Shown here: in pieces, positions 1 through 12,327 of the stretch
How positions within the stretch are numbered: the first letter of the stretch is position 1
How the letters are laid out: every line of letters begins with the position of its first letter
Source of the DNA: Alistipes sp.
GTDB lineage: Bacteria; Bacteroidota; Bacteroidia; Bacteroidales; Rikenellaceae
Direction: 5' to 3'
Assembly: GCA_017465605.1 (NCBI GenBank)
Contig: JAFTVW010000012.1
Location: forward strand, 1-38,053
DNA length: 38,053 nt
The notes under the pieces: generated by a model
What the model saw: the letters and a program-made list of their open reading frames with translations, nothing else
Told to the model about the DNA's origin: nothing
Database searches by the model: none
Position numbers and translations under genes: made by a program

Positions 1-23
1 ACTTTTTAGCCGTAAAAAGTGGA

Positions 24-178
24 GCAAAAAGCGGCGCAATGATAAATTTTAGGGGTCAGCCAATAAAATTTCCTAAAACAGATGCTTCGCACTTTTGAAG
101 CAATCAAAAGGTCTCTGTTTTTTAACGGAAATTTCACCGCCAGACCTGTTTCCTAAAATTCATCGGTGCGTTTTTATT
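24..178 (+). repeat. Nested multi-stem hairpin block, left copy
   Basis: Four nested stems can be drawn. The outer stem joins about 26-53 to 152-175 (GATAAATTTTAGG against CCTAAAATTCATC plus an imperfect extension). Inside it are AAATTTCC 66-73 with GGAAATTT 127-134, AAAACAGA 75-82 with TCTGTTTT 114-121, and GCTTC 84-88 with GAAGC 97-101. It is preceded by ACTTTTTA-gccg-TAAAAAGT at 1-20. The inner stems are kept in the right-arm copy. It could be a MITE-like unit or a structured RNA; the sequence alone does not decide. Confidence 0.7.
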
Positions 179-212
179 TCTACACACGTCATTACACAAT
201 AAATATCACGTC

Positions 213-278
213 ATTCCTCATTTTTACATCAACTCACTTGTGTTGATAGTATTAGGGGATATGTAAAAATGTTGGAAT
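213..278 (+). repeat. Variable-arm hairpin H1
   Basis: Outer stem ATTCC 213-217 pairs with GGAAT 274-278. After a small internal loop, inner arm ATTTTTACAT 220-229 pairs perfectly with ATGTAAAAAT 261-270, around a loop of about 31 nt. It is flanked on the left by CACGTC. Its counterpart in the right arm (5116-5180) has a different but equally self-complementary arm. Confidence 0.85.
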
Positions 279-414
279 CGACCGCTTAATTATGACCTTG
301 CAGTGTGCGACAACAAAAAACTCTCCCTCTAAGTTAGAGGGAGTCCCCGAAGGGGGAGGGAGTGTGTCTTTTGTAGCAAAGTCTCTTTTTGCAAGGTGGT
401 TTATTATAATGTAG

Positions 415-480
415 ATTCCATCATTTTTGTATGGTAGCTAATCTTTTATAATCACTCACTCTATTACAAAAATGTGGAAT
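415..480 (+). repeat. Variable-arm hairpin H2
   Basis: ATTCC 415-419 pairs with GGAAT 476-480. Inner arm ATTTTTGTA 423-431 pairs with TACAAAAAT 465-473, around a loop of about 33 nt. It is followed by GACGTG. The counterpart in the right arm (4914-4979) has arm ATTTCTTCAT instead. Confidence 0.85.
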
Positions 481-499
481 GACGTGTGTATATATTAAA

Positions 500-534
500 T
501 ATCCTGCCTAACTCGATGTTAGACAGGATATTTT
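500..534. terminator. Stem-loop terminator candidate downstream of prfB
   Basis: ATCCTG-c-CTAAC (501-512), loop TCGAT, GTTAG-a-CAGGAT (518-529), followed by TTTT on the plus strand and ATTTAAT on the minus strand. It lies just past the 3' end of prfB, which is on the minus strand. A copy with a related stem lies beyond the phosphoesterase at the other end of the inverted repeat. Confidence 0.6.
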
Positions 535-567
535 GTCGATTTTGAATCTTGAATTCTGAATTTTGAA

Positions 568-1684
568 TTACACCGTCTCGCCGCCTGTTTGCATAAGGTA
601 CTCCTTGATGAAAGCATCTAAATCACCGTCCATAACGGCCTCTACGGCCGAAGTTTGATGGCCTGTGCGGTGGTCTTTGACTCTACGATCGTCGAACACA
701 TATGAGCGAATCTGCGAGCCCCACTCGATACGTTTCTTCGTAGCCTCCAACGCCTGCTGTGTGGCCATACGTTTCTCCATCTCACGCTGGTAGAGTTTCG
801 AGCGTAGGATTCGCATTGCATTCTCGCGATTCATAAGTTGTGAGCGTGTTTCGCTATTCTCGATAAGGAACTCAACCGCCTCACCCGTATCGGCATCTTT
901 ACCGTGATATCGCAGGCGAACAGCGGTCTCTACCTTGTTGACATTCTGACCTCCCGCACCACTTGAACGATAGGTATCCCACTCGTAATCCGAAGGGTTG
1001 ATCGTAATCTCGATGCTATCGTCAACTGCGGGCGCAACAAAGACCGACGCAAATGTTGTTTGACGCTTGTTGTTGGCATTGAACGGTGAAAGGCGCACCA
1101 TACGATGCACGCCGTTCTCGCTTTTTAGATAACCATAGGCATAGTCGCCCTCAATCTCCAACGTACAGGACTTCACACCCACTTCATCACCCGCCTGATA
1201 ATCCATCATACGGTACTTATAGCCGTGAGCATCGCACCAGCGGGTGTACATACGCAACAACATCGAGACCCAATCCAAAGCCTCCGTACCGCCAGCACCT
1301 GCATTGATATCCATAATAGCCCCCATCTTATCCTCCTCACCTCGCAACATATTGCGAAGTTCGAGAGCTTCGATAAGTTCGATGGTCTTGGCGTAGTGCT
1401 CCTCCATTTCGGCCTCCGTAGCGAGCTCTGCCGCCACAAATTCGGGCATCAGACCCAAATCCTCGACAGCCTTAGCCACCGTATCGTAATCGTCAATCCA
1501 CGACTTTATGGCCGCCACCTTGCGGAGTTGCTTCTGCGCGGCATCGGCATCGTCCCAAAATGCAGGGTCCTGAGTCTTCTCCTGCTCGTTTTGCAAGTCT
1601 ATTCGCTTCTGAGCGATGTCAAAGACACCTCCCCAACGAATCCTGTCGTCTTATAGCCTCTTTAATTTGGTCTTCTGAAATCAT
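568..1684 (-). CDS. prfB: Peptide chain release factor 2, with programmed +1 frameshift
   Basis: RF2 recognises UAA and UGA and triggers peptide release on the ribosome. The reading frame is split. Translation starts at ATG 1684-1682 and runs 21 codons to an in-frame TGA at 1621-1619. Skipping the T at 1621 resumes in the +1 frame at GAC and gives a 371-aa protein, complement(join(568..1620,1622..1684)). The shift site reads CTT TGA C, and a Shine-Dalgarno-like GGGGAGG lies just upstream, the classic RF2 autoregulatory arrangement: low RF2 favours the shift. Seen motifs: anticodon-like SPF at about residues 199-201 and the catalytic GGQ at 244-246 of the shifted product. Length matches the family (E. 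coli 365 aa). Annotating only the long frame from a TTG near 1596 would lose the N-terminus. Confidence 0.96.
1608..1640 (-). promoter_or_regulatory. prfB: prfB programmed +1 frameshift site
   Basis: On the minus strand the order is TTG GGG AGG TGT CTT TGA C: an internal Shine-Dalgarno-like GGGGAGG, one codon, then slippery CTT followed by the UGA stop in a poor context (next base C). This matches the known E. coli layout (AGG GGG TAT CTT TGA C). RF2 shortage lets the ribosome slip on CTT and read GAC. Confidence 0.93.
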
Positions 1685-1864
1685 AATGTTATCTGTTATA
1701 ACGGGTAACCTATCACCTTTGGGATTGCTTGTGGCTTGCGGCCGTTAGCCGCATTTACAAATCTGACCCACCCCCTAATCCCCCGCCTCAGGCAGGGGAC
1801 TTTGGTCGCTTTGCAAGCAAAGCTCCAAGTGCTAAATCAGTATGTAAGAGTAATTTTTTACTCC
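1685..1864. other. Short gene-free spacer with small hairpins
   Basis: The spacer holds three small inverted repeats: TGCGGC-cgtta-GCCGCA near 1738-1754, a C-rich/G-rich hairpin near 1780-1798, and GCTTTGC-aa-GCAAAGC near 1808-1823. The C/G-rich hairpin resembles the GGGAG/CTCCC-type one inside the long inverted repeat. I see no clear promoter for prfB here. Confidence 0.4.
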
Positions 1865-2032
1865 TTATTTTTTGTTTTCCTCTTTCTTGGTATTGGCAGA
1901 ATAGGCTGCACCGAGGGCAACACCTATGCAAAGGCCTATTGGAATATTATCCATAGCAAGACCTAACATTAGACCAATTGCCAAGCCAATAGACAAATAT
2001 TGACCTTTCTTAATAGGCTTCTTCCCCTCCAT
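1865..2032 (-). CDS. Small glycine-rich membrane protein (glycine-zipper-like), 55 aa
   Basis: This is a short reading frame with ATG at 2032-2030 and TAA at 1867-1865. The product begins MEGKKPIKKGQYLS, then has a hydrophobic glycine-patterned stretch (IGLAIGLMLGLAM, then IGLCIGVALGAAYS) and ends in a lysine/glutamate-rich tail (NTKKEENKK). The repeated G-x3-G-like spacing over residues 16-43 resembles small glycine-zipper membrane proteins of Bacteroidota and Firmicutes; function is unknown. It lies between cysS and prfB on the same strand, 151 nt after cysS with a large hairpin repeat in between. Upstream GTGAGAAATT gives at most a weak ribosome site, as is normal in this phylum. Charge layout and hydrophobicity support a real gene despite the size. 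Confidence 0.7.
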   Translation of the reverse strand: MEGKKPIKKGQYLSIGLAIGLMLGLAMDNIPIGLCIGVALGAAYSANTKKEENKK

Positions 2033-2074
2033 AATTTCTCACAATATAACTATTGCTACCCTAAAACCTCTTAT

Positions 2075-2173
2075 GATTAGGCTATTTTGAGGCTGGTCGC
2101 AGTGGGCGAAAGCGGAGCATACTTTGCGTATGTGAGCATTTCGCACGCAAGCCAGACGCCAAAAGAGCCAATC
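2075..2173. repeat. Long hairpin repeat, family R2, copy a
   Basis: The element is an imperfect hairpin of about 99 nt. GATT-a-GGCTATTTTG (from 2075) pairs with CAAAAGAGCC-AATC (to 2173). Inside are CTGG 2093-2096 with CCAG 2152-2155, GCGAAA 2106-2111 with TTTCGC 2139-2144, and apex CATAC 2118-2122 with GTATG 2127-2131. Copies at 12628-12730 and about 37967-38053 share the scaffold but differ in stem sequence with pairing kept. It lies just downstream of cysS, so it may also act in 3'-end formation. Confidence 0.85.
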
Positions 2174-2183
2174 AGAAGGAGTT

Positions 2184-3665
2184 TTACTCTATCTCCCAAT
2201 CAACTCCGTCCTTACGGTCTTTAACGCGGATACCAATGGCGGTGAGTTCGTTGCGAATCTTATCCGATGTGGCCCAATCCTTTGCAGCCTTAGCATCTTG
2301 ACGTACTGCAAGAATCATATCTACCACCTTCGATAGCATATCTCCGCCTGCCGCAGCACCCTCCTGCTTCTCGTTGCGCAGACCCAAAATATCGAATATA
2401 TAGAGGTTGAACACTCGCTTCATCTCTGCCAAATCGGCCTCCGAGATGGTTGCCTTACCTTCGGCTACCTGATTGATGATGCGAACATAGTCGAACAGAG
2501 CCGAGATAACCATTGGAGAGTTCAAATCGTCGTCCATAGCCTCGCGGCAACGGCCTTCGAGTTCGGCAACAGATATACCCTCCGACGAAGTGGCCGACGG
2601 CTTCAACTTACCCAACGTCTCCACGCCCTTCATCAAGCGGTCAAACCCCTTCTCGGCGGCCTGCAAAGCGGCATTTGAGAAATCCAACGTCGAACGATAG
2701 TGAGCCTGCAAGATGAAGAAACGGATAGTCATAGGCGAGTATGCCTGCTCCAACTTGGGGTGCTCACCATTAAAGAGCTGCTCCATTGTGATAAAATTAC
2801 CATACGACTTACCCATCTTCTGGCCGTCGATAGTAATCATATTATTGTGTATCCAATAGCGGGCCGAGTCCTTACCCAAAGCGGCTGTGGCTTGTGCAAT
2901 CTCGCACTCGTGGTGAGGGAACATCAAATCCATACCGCCACCGTGAATGTCAAACTGCTCACCCAAATACTTGCAACTCATAGCCGAGCACTCCATATGC
3001 CAGCCAGGGAAACCATCGCTCCACGGCGAGGGCCAACGCATAATATGTTCGGGCGAAGCCTTCTTCCACAAAGCAAAGTCAAACGAATTGCGCTTGTCGC
3101 TCTGACCGTCCAAATCGCGGGTGTTGGCTACGATATCTTCGAGGTTGCGACCCGAGAGCTTACCATAATGATAATCTTTGTTATACTTCTCCACATCGAA
3201 ATAGACCGAGCCATTTGATTCGTAGGCATAGCCAGCGTCGAAGATACGCTTCACGAAATCAATCTGCTCGATGATGTGACCCGAAGCGTGGGGCTCGATT
3301 GATGGGGTGAGTACGCCCAACTGCTCCATAGCCTTATGGTAACGCTCGGTGTAGTAGTGGGCAACCTCCATAGGCTCCAACTGCTCCAAACGAGCCTTCT
3401 TTGCAATCTTATCCTCGCCCTCGTCGGCATCGTGCTCCAAGTGGCCTACGTCGGTGATATTGCGCACATAACGCACCTTATAACCCAAAGCCTTCAAGTA
3501 TCGGAACAACAAATCGAAGGTGATAGATGGACGTGCGTGACCCAAATGTGGGTCACCATATACTGTTGGGCCGCAGACATACATTCCCACGCGGCCCTCG
3601 TTAATTGGCTCAAACTCCTCCTTACGACGAGTGAGCGTATTGTATAAATTGAGTTTTGATTCCAT
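2184..3665 (-). CDS. cysS: Cysteinyl-tRNA synthetase
   Basis: This class I enzyme charges tRNA-Cys with cysteine in the cytoplasm. The product is 493 aa from ATG 3665-3663. Seen in order: CGPTVYG with the first zinc cysteine (about residue 31), the HIGH motif as HLGH (40-43), zinc-site WHMECSAMS (Cys about 226) and HHECE (about 251-255), the KMSKS loop as KMGKS (283-287), and the C-terminal DALR/anticodon region. An in-frame GTG six codons upstream is rejected as start because the TATCTTTG -7 box (3683-3690, minus) sits on it. The gene is divergent from the phosphoesterase and is followed by the 55-aa gene and prfB. Confidence 0.97.
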
Positions 3666-3682
3666 AACTTCAATATTTTTCA

Positions 3683-3690
3683 CAAAGATA
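3683..3690 (-). promoter_or_regulatory. cysS promoter, -7 box
   Basis: TATCTTTG on the minus strand matches the Bacteroidota TAnnTTTG -7 element. It lies 17 nt upstream of the cysS ATG, so the leader would be very short. No well-spaced TTTG -33 box is evident. Confidence 0.65.
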
Positions 3691-3712
3691 CAATATTTAA
3701 TTCAAAATTAAG

Positions 3713-3763
3713 AATTCAAAATTCAAAATCAAGTCGTAACGACCCAATTTTGAATTTTGAATT
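3713..3763. repeat. Perfect 17-bp inverted repeat between divergent promoters
   Basis: AATTCAAAATTCAAAAT (3713-3729) and ATTTTGAATTTTGAATT (3747-3763) are exact reverse complements around a 17-nt loop. The repeat lies between the cysS and phosphoesterase -7 boxes and supplies the TTTG -33 candidate of the latter. Related TTTTGAATCTTGAATTC-like tracts occur at 540-570 and about 5573-5601. Confidence 0.85.
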
Positions 3764-3777
3764 TATTTGTATCTTTG
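3749..3777 (+). promoter_or_regulatory. Promoter of the metallophosphoesterase gene
   Basis: TTTG at 3749-3752 and TATCTTTG at 3770-3777 with a 17-nt spacer fit the Bacteroidota -33/-7 pattern, slightly short of the usual 19-21 nt. This places the transcript start near 3784 and rules out a protein start at 3767. Confidence 0.6.
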
Positions 3778-3835
3778 CACTAAGAGTAGCGTAATACAAC
3801 GCAACAACCCTACGCAAAACAAAATTAACAACGAT

Positions 3836-4846
3836 ATGAAACTTTCAAAGACCTTTTTACTTCTCGCAGTAGTGGCTATCGTAGGAGCATTTTTCACGTC
3901 TCAATCGGCCTATGCGCAGGCTCCTACTCTCAAATTCAATGCCGAGGGCAAATTCAAAATCGTGCAACTGACCGATATTCATTGGAAATACGGCAATCCC
4001 AAGTCTGACATCGCTGCCGAGCGTATGGCCGAGGTACTCGATGCCGAAAAACCCGACCTTGTGGTGGTGACAGGTGACATTGTCTTTGCAAAACCCGCAG
4101 CCGATGGTATGAAGGCAGCACTCGCCCCTATTATCGAGCGAGGAATACCGTTTGCCGTAACCTTCGGTAACCACGACGACGAGCACGACCTCTCGCGCGC
4201 CCAGCTACTCGAATTGGTGCAGGGTATGAAGGGTAATCTTAGCTCCACAACAGAGGGCATTACAGGAGTGACGAACTACACCCTCACAATTAAATCATCT
4301 TCGTCAGATGCCACAGCCGCAGTGCTTTACGTCTTTGATAGCAACTCCTACTCTGCCAACAAACGAGCAAAGGGTTACGATTGGATTGCACACGACCAGA
4401 TAGGTTGGTACATGAAACAGAGCGCAGCCTTCACAGCCGCCAACTCGGGCACTCCTCTGCCAGCTTTGGCATTCTTCCACATTCCACTCCCCGAATACAA
4501 CGAGGCAGTACGCAACGAAGGCTCATTTATGATTGGCACTCGCAAAGAGGCAGCCTGCTCGCCAAAAGTCAATTCGGGCTTGGCTACGGCAATGCTCGAT
4601 GCAGGCGATGTGATGGGAGTATTTGTGGGTCACGACCACGTCAACGACTACGCCGTAGATTGGCGCGGCATACTCTTGGCATACGGCAGATATTCGGGTG
4701 GCGACACGGTCTATAACGATATCCCCAACGGCAACGGTGCGCGTATAATTGAGCTTAGCGAAGGCTCACGCGAGTTCAAGAGTTGGATTCGCATCGGCGA
4801 AGGTCGCACAATCAACCACCTAAACTACCCCGCCGATACGAAGTAA
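3836..4846 (+). CDS. Periplasmic calcineurin-like metallophosphoesterase
   Basis: A 336-aa secreted phosphoesterase. The start is ATG 3836, which opens with a signal peptide (MKLSKTFLLLAVVAIVGAFF, ending near SAYAQA). Two-metal calcineurin-fold motifs follow in order: DIH (residues 47-49), GD (80-81), GNHD (111-114), a histidine in FFHIPLPEY, and GHDH in VGHDHVNDY. The set is complete, so the protein should bind two metals and hydrolyse phosphomonoesters or diesters; the substrate cannot be told. It resembles the ICC/purple-acid-phosphatase-like single-domain group. It stands alone, divergent from cysS, and its 3' end abuts the right arm of the long inverted repeat. Confidence 0.9.
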   Translation: MKLSKTFLLLAVVAIVGAFFTSQSAYAQAPTLKFNAEGKFKIVQLTDIHWKYGNPKSDIAAERMAEVLDAEKPDLVVVTGDIVFAKPAADGMKAALAPIIERGIPFAVTFGNHDDEHDLSRAQLLELVQGMKGNLSSTTEGITGVTNYTLTIKSSSSDATAAVLYVFDSNSYSANKRAKGYDWIAHDQIGWYMKQSAAFTAANSGTPLPALAFFHIPLPEYNEAVRNEGSFMIGTRKEAACSPKVNSGLATAMLDAGDVMGVFVGHDHVNDYAVDWRGILLAYGRYSGGDTVYNDIPNGNGARIIELSEGSREFKSWIRIGEGRTINHLNYPADTK

Positions 4847-4865
4847 ATTCAAAATTGGCAAAATG

Positions 4866-4892
4866 TCCTGTCTAACACTGAGTTAGGCAGGA
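4866..4892. terminator. Stem-loop terminator candidate downstream of the phosphoesterase
   Basis: TCCTGTCTAAC (4866-4876), loop ACTGA, GTTAGGCAGGA (4882-4892): eleven pairs including one wobble. It begins 20 nt after the stop codon and mirrors the stem at 500-534. Confidence 0.6.
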
Positions 4893-4913
4893 TATTCAAT
4901 ATATACACACGTC

Positions 4914-4979
4914 ATTCCGCATTTCTTCATTTGTGAGGGTTGGAGAAGATAATTAGTAACTATGAAGAAATGTAGGAAT
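4914..4979 (+). repeat. Variable-arm hairpin H2'
   Basis: ATTCC 4914-4918 pairs with GGAAT 4975-4979. Inner arm ATTTCTTCAT 4921-4930 pairs perfectly with ATGAAGAAAT 4962-4971, around a loop of about 31 nt. It is the right-arm counterpart of H2, and the inner arm differs at several positions, each compensated on the other strand of the stem. Confidence 0.88.
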
Positions 4980-5115
4980 CTACCTTATAATAAACCACCT
5001 TGCAAAAAGTGACTTTGCAGCAAAGACACACTCCCTCCCCCCTTCGGGTGCTCCCTCTAACTTAGAGGGAGAGTTTTTTGTTGTCGCACACTGCAAGGTC
5101 ATAATTAAGCGGTAG

Positions 5116-5180
5116 ATTTCAACATTTTCGCATAGATGCTGATAATATCACCGCTGGCTGTTAATGCGAAAATATGAAAT
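5116..5180 (+). repeat. Variable-arm hairpin H1'
   Basis: ATTTC 5116-5120 pairs with GAAAT 5176-5180. Inner arm ATTTTCGCAT 5124-5133 pairs perfectly with ATGCGAAAAT 5164-5173. It is the counterpart of H1; both the outer and inner stems carry compensated changes. Confidence 0.88.
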
Positions 5181-5217
5181 GACGTGATATTTATTGTGTA
5201 ATAACGTGTGTATAATA

Positions 5218-5369
5218 AAAAACGCACCGATGAATTTTAGGAAACAGGGCAGACGGTGAAATTTCCGTAAAAAAACAGAGACCTTTTGATTGCTTCAAAA
5301 GTGCGAAGCATCTGTTTTAGGAAATTTTATTGGCTGACCCCTAAAATTTATCATTGCGCCGCTTTTTAC
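5218..5369 (-). repeat. Nested multi-stem hairpin block, right copy
   Basis: This is the reverse-complement copy of 24-178, without gaps and with about five differences by my count in the 175 bases spanning the block. The AAATTTCC/GGAAATTT, AAAACAGA/TCTGTTTT and GCTTC/GAAGC stems are all kept. Confidence 0.75.
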
Positions 5370-5413
5370 TCCACTTTTTACGGCTAAAAAGTGGAATAAA
5401 ACAAAAAACCGTC

Positions 5414-5479
5414 ATTCTTACATTTTTGTATAGAAGATAGTTACATCACCCACCCTCACCAATACAAAAATGTCAGAAT
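5414..5479 (+). repeat. Variable-arm hairpin H3
   Basis: ATTCT 5414-5418 pairs with AGAAT 5475-5479 and inner arm ATTTTTGTAT 5422-5431 with ATACAAAAAT 5462-5471, around a loop of about 30 nt. GTC precedes and GACG follows, so the ends are symmetrical (CGTCATTC ... GAATGACG). It lies just outside the right arm; a matching copy, if any, would be left of the window. Confidence 0.88.
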
Positions 5480-5531
5480 GACGCAGTCTTGCGACTGTTT
5501 TATGATTCCCTTGACACCCAACAATAAGGAA

Positions 5532-5566
5532 ATACTCTTTCCAACTCGATGTTGGATAGAGTATTA
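5532..5566. repeat. CTCGAT-loop stem plus AT tract, third copy
   Basis: AATACTCT-tt-CCAAC, loop TCGAT, GTTGG-at-AGAGTATT. The CYAAC-TCGAT-GTTRG core matches the stem at 500-534 although the lower stem differs and is compensated. As at 540-570, a TTTTGAAT...TTTTGAATTA tract follows (about 5573-5601). No gene ends nearby, so a terminator role is not obvious here. Confidence 0.65.
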
Positions 5567-5721
5567 ACTAATTTTGAATCTTGAATTCTGAATTTTGAAT
5601 TATTTTGACAGGCCTGCCAAAATCGCCTCCGCAGACGATTCCTGAATCGCCCAAAAGGCCTATAAACACAAAAATTTAGCTATTGGGTGATAATATTACA
5701 TATTATATTGCGTTAATTTTG

Positions 5722-5729
5722 TATATTTG
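5722..5729 (+). promoter_or_regulatory. Candidate -7 box for the TMEM260-like gene
   Basis: TATATTTG matches TAnnTTTG, 29 nt before the ATG at 5759. I do not see a correctly spaced -33 element. Confidence 0.5.
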
Positions 5730-5758
5730 TCCGAATATTTAACACTTAATTAGACGCT

Positions 5759-8700
5759 ATGAATTTCAAACGTTGGGACAGAATCACAGGTTGGGCGGTT
5801 TTTGCCGTCGCAGCCATCACATATCTGCTTACAATGGAGCCCTCGTCGAGTCTATGGGACTGCGCCGAGTTTATCGCAACATCGTATAAATTGGAAGTGG
5901 GTCACCCACCCGGAGCTCCGCTCTTTATGTTGATGGCCCGTTTGGCTACCCTCTTTGCCCCCTCGACCTACTATGTGCCGCATATGGTCAATGCCCTAAA
6001 CTGCTTAGCCAGCGCATTTTGTATATTGTTCCTCTTCTGGACAATCACCCACTTGGCACGCCGAGTGCTTACTCGCTCTGCCAAAGAGTTCACAACAGCC
6101 GCCAAACTCACCGCTCTGGGAGCTGGTACGGTGGGAGCTTTGGCCTACACCTTCACCGATACGTTTTGGTTCTCGGCAGTAGAGGGTGAGGTGTATTCTC
6201 TTTCATCGATGTTTACGGCTTTGGTCGTATGGCTTATGCTCAAATGGGAGGAGCAGGCCGACGAGCCCCACTCGGCACGTTGGATTGTGCTTATCGCCTA
6301 CCTGATGGGACTCTCGATTGGTGTGCATATCCTCAACTTGCTGACCATACCTGCGCTGGTATTTATCTATTACTTCCGTAAGTATCAGAACATCACACTG
6401 AAAGGCATCTGCTACGCCACGCTCATAGCTTTGGCTATTTTGGGCTTTATCAACGGCATCATCATACCCTACACCGTATATTTGGGTGCAATGGTCGATG
6501 TAGCGTTTGTGAATTGGTTGTCGCTGCCTGTCAATACAGGTATTACGGTATTTGCATTGGCGGTGTTTGGTGCACTGTTCTACGGCATTGTACGCACCCA
6601 CAAGGCGGGCCACAAAGTATGGAATCTGATTTTGGTATCAACCACGATGATTCTCATAGGCTTCTCGTCTTATGCCACCGTTACCATTCGCGCATCGGTC
6701 AATCCTCCGATGAATAGCAACAACCCCGACAATCCACACGCCCTTTTGGCCGTGTTGAATCGTGACCAATATGGCAACCGACCATTGCTTTATGGACAAT
6801 ACTACTCATCGCCTATCGAGGATTATGTGCAGGGCACATCATACCACTACAACCCCGATAGCAAGCAGTATGATAAGGTGACACGCCTTACGGGCTACAA
6901 ATACACCGATGAGTTCCAGCACTTCTTCCCCCGCTTGTGGAACTCATATAAGGGCGAATCGGAGTATAAACCGTGGGCTGCATATCGCACTAAGGTCGAT
7001 ATTATGCGTGACGAGAACGGCGAGCCAATGCTCGACGAGCAGGGCAAACCCATAACAGGCGAGGTGTTGGACTTCGGTCGTGTGGTATTCGACAAGAACA
7101 CGGGCGAGAGTTTCGTAGAGCCCACATTTGCCGAAAACCTCTACTTCTTCTTCACCTACCAGCTGAACTATATGTATTGGCGATACTTCCTATGGAATTT
7201 TGTAGGTCGCCAAGACGACATACAAGCACAAGACGAGACCATCACTCACGGTAATTGGCTCTCGGGAATCGATGCTATCGACGAGGTCTATCTCGGCCCG
7301 CAGAGCAACCTTCCGAGCGAGATGCGCGACAACCCAGCTCGCAACCGTTACTTCTTCCTACCCTTTATTTTGGGTCTGCTGGGACTTATCTACCAACTCA
7401 ACCGCGACCAACGCAACTTTGTGGTGGTGATGTGGTTGTTCGTAATGATGGGAGTGGCCCTTGTGGTATATTTCAACACCTCGCCCGGAGAGCCCCGCGA
7501 GAGAGATTATGTATATGCAGGTTCGTTCTATGCCTTCTGTATTTGGATAGGATTGGGAGTGCTGGCACTCTACGAACTGCTCTCAAAGGCTATGCCTAAG
7601 AGTGGTAAAGCGATGGCCTTTGCAGCTACCGTAGTGGGCCTTGTAGTGCCTGCCATCTTGGCTGCCGAGAACTGGGACGACCACGACCGCTCAGGCCGTA
7701 CTATGGCACGCGATATTGGTTGGAACTATCTGCAATCGCTACCCGAGAACGCCATTATTATCAACTATGGCGACAACGACACATTCCCGCTGTGGTATAA
7801 TCAGGAGGTGGACGGAGTGCGTACCGACGTGAGAATTATGAATTCAAGCTACTTGGGTGGCGAGTGGTACATCGACCAGATGAAGACCCGAGCCAACGAG
7901 GCTGCCGCAGTACCATTCTCACTGCCTTCGAGCAAATACACATTCGTAAACGACCAATTGCCCGTACGAGCAAAGGTGGACCGCGTGGTTGATATCAAGG
8001 AGCTGATGGCATTTATCGAGCGCGAGGACGAAGCCACAAAGCTCCCACTCATTGATGGCACACTCATCGACTACGTTCCTGCCCGCAAGATAGCTATCCC
8101 CGTAAACAAGGATAACGCCATAGCATCGGGCATTGTGAAGGAGGAGGACCGCGACAAGATGGTCGATACGGTATATATCAACATTGCCGAGCGCAAGCGT
8201 TACATCGACAAGAGCGAGATGATGTTATTAGACCTACTTGCAAACTTCGATTGGAATCGCCCGATATGCTTTACTCAGGTCTATATCTTGCAGGATTTTG
8301 GTCTGCTCGACTACTTGCAGTTTGATGGCTATGCTTACCGTTTAGTACCAATCCTTACGCCATATCGTTCATCGTGGGATATTGGCCGCATCGACACCGA
8401 CCGCACCTACGACCTATTGATGAATACGTTCCGATATGGAAATATGGCCGACGAAGATGTGCTGGCCGACCACTTCACACAATACAACCTGAGTGCATCA
8501 CACGCTCGCGAGGCATTTGCTCGCACAGCGAAGGAACTCGCACGCAAAGGTGAGAAGCAGAAAGCACTCGACCTGCTCGATAGAGGTTTGGAGGTGTTGC
8601 CATCGCCAAAGCTACGTTACAGCGAGGCCAACACTGTGCCATTCATCGAGGCATACTACATCTTGGAGGAGTGGGAGAAGGGTGACGCCTTGATGCTTGA

Positions 8701-10161: not shown

Positions 10162-12327
10162 ATGAAAATTCGACTTACACTTCTGACGTTGCTCGTTGCC
10201 ATATTTCAAAGCCTAACGGCCATTGGTGCAGTACAAGAGATTTTTGTTGCACCCACAGGTAACGACTCCAATGATGGCTCATCAAAACACCCACTTGCAT
10301 CGTTGCAGGGGGCAATCGAGCGAGTTAAAGCACTCCAAGACAACGCTTCGATAGAGGGTTTTGTCGTACACCTCGCAGCTGGCACTTTTACCCAATACGA
10401 AGCACTCGCAATCGACCATTCACTTCGCAAACCCATCGAGTTCAGAGGTTCAGAGTCAAACTCTCGCACCATCATATCGGGAGCTATGCAGGCTGGTCAA
10501 TTTACCGCTGTAAACGATAATCTTTGGCGTGTTCGCATACCCGAAGTTGCACGCTATGGATTCCGTTTCGAGCAGATTTACATCAATGGCGAGCGCCGAT
10601 TCCGCGCCCAAAGCCCCAATCGTGGCGAGTTTGCAGCAGTCAAGTATGCGAAACATATTCCCATAGACTCTACTAACTTGGGGCGTGACATATATGGTTG
10701 GACGATTGTCAACATCACCCCTAAAAATCCACTCCCATTTGGTGATGCCTGCCGCACATACTATGCTGGAGAGAATCTCAACGATAAAAAAATGGAGATC
10801 ATTGGCGAAGTAATGGGTCGCCCACTCATCACATTCTTCCATAAATGGGACACTTCGCGTCGCCCGCTGTTGCATGTCGATTCAAATGGTACGATGAGCG
10901 TTGCAGGTCGCGGATTCTATCCTTGGAACACTATTGATAGCCGCACTCGCTTTATTGCCGAGAACGATACCGCATTCCTCGACGCAGAGGGAGAGTGGAT
11001 TCTTGCGCGAGATGGCTGGTTATACTATATCCCATGCAAGGGAGAGAGCATCGAGAACACCATTTGCCAAATACCTATTGCCGAGCAGTTTATAACAATC
11101 AATGGCAATGGAATGGAGCAGCAGGTAGATGGCGTAAAATTCAGCAATATAGATTTCAAATACGCCTCATATATCACTCCCGAAGATGGCAACAATCAAA
11201 TGCAGGCCGCAGCAGCTATTGCAACGGTTGTGGAGGTCAACTTTGCCCGCAATATCCACCTTGAAGAGTGCACTATCGCACACACAGGATTGGGAGGAGT
11301 ATGGTTTATGCGAGGTTGCTCGGATTGCACGGTTGAGCGATGCCACATCTACGACTTGGGAGCAAGCGGAGTGAAGATTGGCGAGACCTCGATTCGTGAG
11401 AACCGCGACGAGATTACCCATCATATCAAGGTCGATAACAATATTATCCAACACGGCGGCTTTGTATTCCCTTGCGCAGTTGGAGTGACTATATTCAATG
11501 CCTCAGACAACCAAATAACACACAACGATATTGCAGATTTCCGCTATACAGGAGTATCGGTTGGTTGGGTATGGGGTTACTCATACAGTCCTTCAAAACG
11601 TAACATTATTGAGTACAATCATATCCACCACTTAGGTTGGGCGCAGCTCTCGGATATGGGAGGTGTTTATACGTTAGGTCTATCGGAAGGCACATCAGTA
11701 AGCAACAACCTCCTACACGATATCTACTCGCTATACTACGGAGGCTGGGGACTATATACCGACGAGGGCTCTTCGGGTATTCGTATTGAGAATAACCTTG
11801 TATATAACTGCAAGAGCGGAGGTTTCCACCAACACTATGGCAAGGAGAACGTAGTGCGTAACAACATATTTGGCGGTCAAATTCGCACTCAGTTGGAGGC
11901 GTCACGCATCGAGCCACACCTATCGTTTGAGTTCTCACACAATATAATATATTATAGTAGTGGTGTTATGTGCGGAATCAATTGGGCCAATGTGGGTCAT
12001 AAATCCGATTACAACTGCTACTTCTGTACCGATACAGATAAAAAGATAGAGTTTCAAGGCGTGAAATTCGAGGATTGGCAGGCAAAGGGGCAAGACACAC
12101 ACTCGGTTGTTGCCGACCCGCAGTTTGCAGATGCTAAGGCTGGCAACTTCACCCCTCAGAATAAGGCTATGCTCAAACAAATTGGCTTCAAGATGTTCGA
12201 CTACACAAAAGCGGGTGTATATGGCTCGAAGGAGTGGCGCAAGAAGGCCGAACTAAGCAACGAGTTGAAAGCCGCATTCGACAAATTGGTAAGCGACTAC
12301 GAACAGCAGAAAATTACTGATTGGTAG
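10162..12327 (+). CDS. Secreted right-handed parallel beta-helix protein, possible glycoside hydrolase
   Basis: A 721-aa exported protein. ATG 10162 is preferred over GTG 10138 because it opens directly with a signal peptide (MKIRLTLLTLLVAIFQSLTA) and leaves a normal leader after the promoter. The mature N-terminus reads EIFVAPTGNDSNDGSSKHPLAS, the usual opening of DUF1565-type secreted beta-helix proteins, and GFVVHLAAGTF and FEQIYINGERRFRAQSPN follow. The middle (about 330-620) consists of right-handed beta-helix coils with many asparagine-rich turns (NNIIQHGG, NQITHNDI, NNLLHDIY, NNLVYNC). Domain order resembles GH141/GH120-like polysaccharide-degrading proteins, but I cannot assign a family or substrate with certainty. 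Monocistronic, with its own promoter and terminator. Confidence 0.85.
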   Translation: MKIRLTLLTLLVAIFQSLTAIGAVQEIFVAPTGNDSNDGSSKHPLASLQGAIERVKALQDNASIEGFVVHLAAGTFTQYEALAIDHSLRKPIEFRGSESNSRTIISGAMQAGQFTAVNDNLWRVRIPEVARYGFRFEQIYINGERRFRAQSPNRGEFAAVKYAKHIPIDSTNLGRDIYGWTIVNITPKNPLPFGDACRTYYAGENLNDKKMEIIGEVMGRPLITFFHKWDTSRRPLLHVDSNGTMSVAGRGFYPWNTIDSRTRFIAENDTAFLDAEGEWILARDGWLYYIPCKGESIENTICQIPIAEQFITINGNGMEQQVDGVKFSNIDFKYASYITPEDGNNQMQAAAAIATVVEVNFARNIHLEECTIAHTGLGGVWFMRGCSDCTVERCHIYDLGASGVKIGETSIRENRDEITHHIKVDNNIIQHGGFVFPCAVGVTIFNASDNQITHNDIADFRYTGVSVGWVWGYSYSPSKRNIIEYNHIHHLGWAQLSDMGGVYTLGLSEGTSVSNNLLHDIYSLYYGGWGLYTDEGSSGIRIENNLVYNCKSGGFHQHYGKENVVRNNIFGGQIRTQLEASRIEPHLSFEFSHNIIYYSSGVMCGINWANVGHKSDYNCYFCTDTDKKIEFQGVKFEDWQAKGQDTHSVVADPQFADAKAGNFTPQNKAMLKQIGFKMFDYTKAGVYGSKEWRKKAELSNELKAAFDKLVSDYEQQKITDW

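Follow-up and report, generated by a model that had tools for sequence, protein, structure and literature searches.

We analysed a 38,053-nt stretch of Alistipes sp. DNA (contig JAFTVW010000012.1; hereafter, the window), which is one entire contig of a draft genome (2.32 Mb, 64 contigs, 96.14% complete), with a focus on five intergenic hairpins that it carries. These hairpins probably form both ends of short non-autonomous repeats that we regard as a long variant of CGTC-tagged pairs of repetitive extragenic palindromes (REPs) and that spread in trans and exchange hairpins with one another. The repeats share one layout, their hairpins fall into discrete types with matched stems, no same-type pairs were found among those counted, and homologous copies differ by hairpin-sized changes of type, the last observation coming from the two arms of the window and one clear orthologous locus. 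In two relatives, hairpin pairs are located between ISL3-like repeats with 8-bp target duplications.

Under the proposed mechanism, the mobile unit would consist of CGTC, a hairpin and CTACC, a linker of ~72 nt, and an inverted second hairpin of another type enclosed by GGTAG and GACG. The stems would stay matched because copying or recognition of source copies requires the folded hairpin, most likely in single-stranded DNA, and most copies would be largely neutral afterwards. The enzyme supplied in trans would be of the ISL3 type in at least one branch, and the tagged feet would be the sites of the recombination or strand transfer by which hairpins are exchanged.

Hairpins of the window

All five hairpins were located where the initial annotation had placed them, and they fold with z-scores of -2.7 to -8.7 for RNA (ten strand readings) and -3.6 to -8.0 for DNA (five readings). 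With tags included, hairpin h1 (209..282, plus strand; type B, stem core TTAC) has the outer tag CGTC and the inner tag CGAC; h2 (411..484, minus; type E, TTGT) has GTAG inside and GACG outside; h3 (4910..4983, plus; type A, CTTC) has CGTC outside and CTAC inside; and h4 (5112..5184, minus; type C, TCGC) again has GTAG inside and GACG outside. Orientation thus alternates from h1 to h4, whereas h5 (5410..5483, minus; type D, TTGT), which has CGTC at both feet and a 22-nt inverted repeat, lies outside any outward-tagged pair. The GTC/GAC flanks originally attributed to all five hairpins strictly apply to h5 only; h2, h3 and h4 have CGTC at one foot and CTAC at the other, and h1 combines CGTC with CGAC. 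The inner stem, described as 9-10 bp, spans 10-11 bp when the first C-G pair is counted, and the loops of about 30 nt are 30-31 nt long. Each arm is matched by its own complement, as annotated, save for the innermost pair of h2, an A-A mismatch.

In the window alignment (six rows: the five hairpins, with h5 on both strands), 99.0% of the cells are paired, compared to at most 52.1% in slid registers, and 6 of the 16 stem pairs show both-sided changes, in agreement with the copy-specific, compensated stems initially reported, which are far beyond chance expectation. Hairpins h1 to h4 belong to a composite repeat present as a left copy (1..547, plus strand; module X, h1, linker, h2 and a terminator-like hairpin) and an inverted right copy (4847..5392, minus) with an overall identity of 87%. 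The 128-nt linker between h1 and h2 (283..410) contains a GC-rich repeat insert, module W (~312-366), and the linker between h3 and h4 (4984..5111) is an inverted copy of 283-410 that includes module W as well (~5027-5082; both limits by eye). The near-identity of the inter-hairpin sequence in the two arms, noted earlier, was reproduced (outer flank, 95.2%; linker, 93.8%; second flank, 90.5%).

Across the two arms, the hairpins are 66% identical (91/137 columns; 66.2% and 66.7% for the individual pairs), compared to 94% (377/401) for the remainder (Fisher p 1.7e-14 for hairpins versus surroundings, with columns treated as independent). Because the hairpins differ as whole types within near-identical arms, the compensated stems do not result from in-place drift. 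The initial annotation offered selection for the fold or a joint rewriting of both arms as explanations. Pairing is indeed kept across many copies and species, and both arms are replaced together, but selection for the fold of each copy in place does not hold as the main cause, given that the hairpins that differ represent discrete types, of which this genome has many other members.

A genome-wide family of hairpin types

As had been suggested, a covariance model was built from the five window hairpins (R1) and searched against this genome and its relatives. In this genome, R1 produced 122 matches at E <= 0.1, both strands counted, and 146 matches at E <= 0.01 were obtained on 39 fetched sources around matches; a DNA search with positions 1-547 of the window yielded at least 84 genome matches at E <= 1e-3 (40 of the 68 candidates scored). 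Hand merging of opposite-strand matches resulted in 93 hairpins, a count that covers the fetched stretches of the genome. The hairpins fall into about seven discrete types, A to G, which we assigned by a left-arm rule of our own: 20 B, 19 A, 19 C, 16 D, 8 F, 6 E and 3 G, with 2 unplaced. Type F has a longer loop that differs from those of the other types.

Starting from CGTC, each hairpin consists of a 5-bp outer stem (mostly ATTCC, ATTTC or ATTCT), 1-2 nt, an inner stem of 10-11 bp, the loop, the complementary arms with 2-3 nt between them, and CTAC or a variant thereof. The stem totals 16 bp in two helices, and the loop is 29-33 nt long (30-31 nt in 110 of the 129 hairpins of the arm-pairing set defined below). 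The outer foot is CGTC in 83 of the 93 hairpins, with AGTC (3), TGTC (3), CATC (2), CGCC (1) and GGTC (1) in the others. The inner four bases are CTAC (55), CAAC (17), GTTG (12, in module Y), CCAC (3), GACG (2), CGAC (2), CTTC (1) or CTAT (1), so that the inner foot on the opposite strand reads GTAG in 55 cases, GTTG in 17 and GTGG in 3.

Among the 44 neighbouring pairs separated by no more than 320 nt, CGTC is outside in 33, inside in 6 and in tandem in 5. The gaps in the 33 outward-tagged pairs are 70-73 nt (9 pairs), 111-129 nt (18), 150-151 nt (2) and 202-207 nt (4), which fits a bare linker of ~72 nt extended by ~54 nt with module W and by ~79 nt with module Y (module content read by eye from an incomplete sequence listing). 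None of these 33 pairs joins two hairpins of the same type (random pairing mean 5.4, P 0.002), although this result is confounded, given that the two sides of the unit mostly draw on different type pools. There are exceptions to that division at loci L103 and L086, where a type A hairpin sits on the linker usual for types B, C and F and is partnered by type D. Eight outward-tagged pairs of long hairpins in relatives (six in SIG166, two in RGIG4679; read by eye) are also unlike.

Folding of whole pairs, with whichever energy set the script loaded, yielded a mean of -39.7 kcal/mol for natural pairs versus -103.8 kcal/mol for same-type models. However, 18 of the 22 natural pairs still form more than four arm-to-arm pairs, so that unlike stems lessen long-range pairing but do not abolish it. 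A more specific exchange system is conceivable, if rather unlikely, in which the CGTC and GTAG feet would serve as cutting or joining sites for whole-hairpin swaps and for insertion of module Y, and the 4-bp stem core would be an identity code that keeps the pair unlike, such that each hairpin folds alone and no single long cruciform is formed.

Stem pairing across copies and species

The arm-pairing set was drawn from this genome (85 non-F hairpins) and from relatives (55 of 57 hairpins), with exclusion of the short forms L067 and L068, nine duplicates, and the weak-anchor L105 and L066, leaving 129 hairpins. Own arms pair at a mean of 15.53 of 16 positions, compared to 14.12 with shuffled partners (sd 0.06; the highest of 5000 shuffles was 14.32; relatedness not corrected), which answers the proposal that covariation be evaluated statistically. 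The stem cores, which include TTAC, CTTC, TCGC, TTGT, TTAT, TCAC, CCGC and CTGC, are exactly complementary in 119 of the 129. The other 10 show that one-sided changes do occur, which also speaks against in-place selection for the fold as the main cause. In a cross-species set of 20 chosen hairpins, none of them from the window, 96.9% of the cells are paired, and both-sided change affects 12 of the 16 pairs; none of 500 shuffles reached this level of pairing, and slid registers remained at or below 50.6%. The changes cluster in four core pairs, where 27 of the 30 both-sided changes are transitions.

Such covariation, in the window and across species, would be expected of a functional RNA, that is, hairpins that are transcribed and whose fold is kept by host selection, for instance, as a structure at mRNA ends or in untranslated regions. 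The excess of transitions agrees with this possibility because steps via G-U produce them, and two orthologous copies are far more conserved than their flanks (see below). Nevertheless, we consider a functional RNA improbable: copies that are otherwise homologous carry whole hairpins of different types; the ten inexact cores comprise 4 wobbles, 4 C-A mismatches and 2 indels; and no Rfam family reached the gathering score in window positions 1-6000. Rfam matches at a relaxed threshold were weak and unrelated. Promoter-like sites in the window (10 found) are as numerous as expected (9.8).

Matched arms could also arise without selection or mobility, through template switching within the quasi-palindrome, whereby replication rewrites one arm from the other. 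This is a documented process that can yield multi-base compensatory changes (PMC8794818), and it may repair single mismatches in these hairpins. As the overall explanation, it appears the least probable of those considered, because template switching alone would not produce another existing type together with the loop of that type; furthermore, where loops of different types were aligned, they ran in the same orientation.

Probable hairpin exchange at orthologous loci

The reading of the hairpins as exchangeable ends of mobile repeats was examined at 11 displayed locus pairs. The clearest case is the orthologous locus represented by L120 in isolate SIG166 and L090 in this genome. Identity is 91.1% over the outer 400 nt, whereas the hairpin is of type B in one and type C in the other (63.9% identity); the linker is 78.0% identical, and the second hairpin is absent in L120. 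A further, probable case of exchange is L117/L073, in which type A is opposed to type E at the first end, while at the second end one copy has a short CGTC hairpin and the other a type B hairpin of 74 nt; identity is 84% over the adjoining 1000 nt, and the outer flank of the first end is alike only in its last part (43/70 columns). L128/L088 may be another case, the alignment being poor. The copies of L145/L088 looked like separate insertions, and alignment of L112/L073, L117/L078 and L135/L074 revealed no shared element. Outer-flank sequence is common to several hairpin types in 10 of the 17 shared-flank groups, some of these flanks being repeats themselves, and the hairpin at position 2910 of L074 appears to be a hybrid, its two arms belonging to different types.

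Several observations at these loci weigh against the reading of mobile, exchanging repeats, in addition to the confounded pair types. Types are unchanged at both ends in L118/L104, L131/L097 and L122/L084, and one end of L111/L101 is still of type B in both copies; with four orthologous loci retaining the type at one or both ends, exchange is not constant. Neither a donor nor an intermediate of exchange was caught. Moreover, L118 and L104 differ at 3 of 296 nt (L118:722-1017) compared to 7.6% outside, and L131 and L097 at 2 of 218 nt (L131:7200-7417) compared to 11.4% outside. The third pair, L122/L084, differs at 23 of 219 nt versus 17.4% outside, in a region with large unalignable parts. Thus, of the three pairs that kept their types, two are unusually conserved, also in their linkers and loops, as would fit selection on these two. 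No other observation argues as strongly for a host role of individual copies as the unusual conservation of L118/L104 and L131/L097.

ISL3-like repeats and candidate transposases

In two relatives, denoted G053 and G263, hairpin pairs lie between terminal repeats of the form GGCTCAGTC...GGTGG. At no more than 3 mismatches, this ISL3-like repeat was detected 36 times in G053, 14 times in G263, 3 times in this genome and not at all in seven other carriers; a reversed-repeat control gave 0-2 matches per genome. All 10 examined sites with facing repeats (seven in G053, three in G263) contain a hairpin recognized by R2, a model built from 20 hairpins. The flanking 8-mers are equal at 6 or more of 8 positions in seven of the 10 sites and at all 8 in three, compared to a random rate of 0.6%; for L174 and L214, two repeat pairings are possible, and L174 was scored by the outer one. 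ISL3 elements make 8-bp target duplications. Five of the units with ISL3-like repeats and duplications are 362-363 nt long. In this genome, the repeat adjoins two hairpins on contig C31 (L105 and a second copy at 10404-10477 that is cut by the contig end), and a third site on the same contig lies next to what remains of an ISL3 transposase (52 residues; PF01610, E 5.1e-8; L210:6791-6996).

These units, together with the repeat and the ISL3 remnant in this genome, would suit an ordinary ISL3-derived miniature inverted-repeat transposable element (MITE), with sub-terminal hairpins and, in the window's copies, decayed terminal repeats. We find this doubtful. In this genome, 87 of the 88 tested hairpin flanks lack a close ISL3-like repeat, the sole exception being L105, and seven of the 10 carrier genomes have no match to it, two results that also count against the spread of exchanging repeats proposed here. 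The flanks without the repeat have at least 8 mismatches of 20; 12 of them reach exactly 8, above the level of shuffles (3.4%), and those listed among these read as the terminator-like repeat. Other relatives have, by eye, a long hairpin followed by a short CGTC hairpin, an arrangement that suggests that the ISL3 ends were acquired as a vehicle by a single branch.

Further points on the unfavourable side are that three of the 10 ISL3 sites have no duplication (1-3 of 8 positions equal) and that no target duplication is defined for the window's copies. The latter lack the ISL3-like repeat, so that both their mover and the exchange mechanism are inferred.

The REP-associated tyrosine transposase (RAYT) suggested initially did not turn up in the search results: the Y1_Tnp (Y1) domain was found neither in this genome nor in nine carriers, in which a gene could have been missed because they are drafts, such that absence of a transposase is not proof. 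IS110 was likewise not found in the nine carriers, where the transposase search covered Y1 and IS110. Y1 matches occur in 2 of 151 genus genomes, G094 and G145, neither of which has an R2 match, and no significant hairpin match lies near them (best E 0.18). The G094 match reads by eye as an ordinary tnpA/tnpB pair, and that in G145 is a 24-residue fragment at a contig end. An autonomous copy with a gene between two hairpins was also considered and rejected, since inspection by eye, with no family search, of the open reading frames (ORFs) listed for L124, for L087 and for part of L086 suggested housekeeping genes.

Relationship to known repeats

The initial annotation recognized a likeness to neisserial mosaic elements and regarded it as analogy only. 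The likeness stands but goes beyond analogy: in the survey of Di Nocera et al. 2013 (PMC3733652), the neisserial dRS3 is classed as a CGTC-1 REP, with the same tag and layout. That survey describes CGTC-tagged REPs as apparently lacking a dedicated transposase; REP stems are 8-9 bp, with loops of 4-5 nt, with few exceptions, and tails that are mostly CCA; like pairs predominate in CGTC-1, and unlike pairs in CGTC-2 and CGTC-3. The hairpins studied here share with the published CGTC-tagged REPs the CGTC at one foot, AT at the stem start, mostly tag-outside pairs, and subfamilies with alternative complementary stem residues. They differ in having helices of 5 and 10-11 bp and loops of 29-33 nt, a GTAG-like inner tag in place of the CCA tail, and like pairs in 0 of 33 cases. 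Because the stems and loops are far longer than published, we denote the hairpins a new long variant of CGTC-tagged REP pairs and do not assign them to any of the four described CGTC families. With respect to the transposase, no Y1 or IS110 was found in the nine carriers, yet ISL3-like ends are present in two relatives.

Other known systems resemble these repeats in part. GTAG REPs and paired REPs (REPINs) associated with RAYT (TnpAREP) have a GTAG-like foot beside the hairpin (on the other strand here) and inverted pairs, but no Y1 was found in the nine carriers analysed here, and their hairpins have CGTC on the other foot. ISL3-derived MITEs are matched by the ISL3-like ends and 8-bp duplications around hairpin pairs in G053 and G263 and by the repeat beside two hairpins on C31, but not by the window's copies, which are without the terminal repeats. 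Neisserial intergenic mosaic regions, as described in PMC3733652, also interleave CGTC palindromes with other repeat families between genes; they belong to another lineage, and the palindromes here are long and of several exchangeable types. Among the literature matches listed, none concerned long CGTC hairpins in Rikenellaceae or Alistipes, with subscription journals mostly outside the coverage of the search.

In the 2013 survey (PMC3733652), what moves CGTC repeats and why most of their families pair unlike units remained open questions. The present hairpin family offers a handle on both: two relatives contain an ISL3-like vehicle and its target duplications, and the genus comprises many carrier species with differing matched stem codes, in which exchange can be traced at orthologous loci. 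If whole hairpins are indeed swapped as units, compensation in the stems of a repeat family cannot be taken as evidence that each copy is under selection.

Distribution

The possibility that the hairpins occur only in this one place, which would have undermined selection for structure, does not hold, given the 93 hairpins in this genome and the 30 genus genomes, out of 180, with R2 matches. When 84,980 species, each represented by one genome, were scanned with a sequence pattern that cannot match type D, in a set that possibly excluded the window's own records, 39 stretches were identified, all in Rikenellaceae or Alistipes metagenome genomes by title; where titled, the sources were buffalo, goat, yak and deer guts. 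In the large-scale searches, which used strict filters, R1 had matches in 4 of 31 relatives and in 7 of 200 family genomes, the latter seven belonging to this genus, and R2 matched 1 of 393 order genomes, the window's own, in a sample that spans 207 genera and includes little of this genus.

Associated modules and gene context

Module Y is an element of ~80 nt located at the inner foot of hairpins (GGAA/TC), at L103:160-240, L104:2908-2988, L122:4501-4582 and other loci. Throughout this genome, all 12 full-length copies are at hairpin feet, of types A to E; a 13th, partial match lies elsewhere. The module is present in L101 but not in its orthologue L111, in L122 but not in L084, and in both L118 and L104. 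This placement points to the hairpin foot as a preferred point of breakage or joining. Module Y has compensated stems of its own (9 of 24 pairs in 8 sequences). At L101:8279-8351 (minus strand), there is a weak match to the c-di-GMP-I riboswitch (30.1 bits versus a gathering score of 35).

The terminator-like hairpin repeat (repeat family D1) occurs in the window at 497..532, 4861-4896 and 5530-5565, three copies that are not listed by the terminator scan. It has copy-specific stems around a TAACTCGATGTTA-like loop and is often found just outside hairpin pairs. Among 49 hairpin clusters with rough ORF calls, 25 are at a contig edge, 11 between co-directional, 8 between convergent and 5 between divergent genes, and 2 overlap an ORF; no bias is claimed. 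Module X (1..198, with a second copy at 5195-5392) is a separate dispersed repeat, copies of which are present at several contig ends of the same genome.

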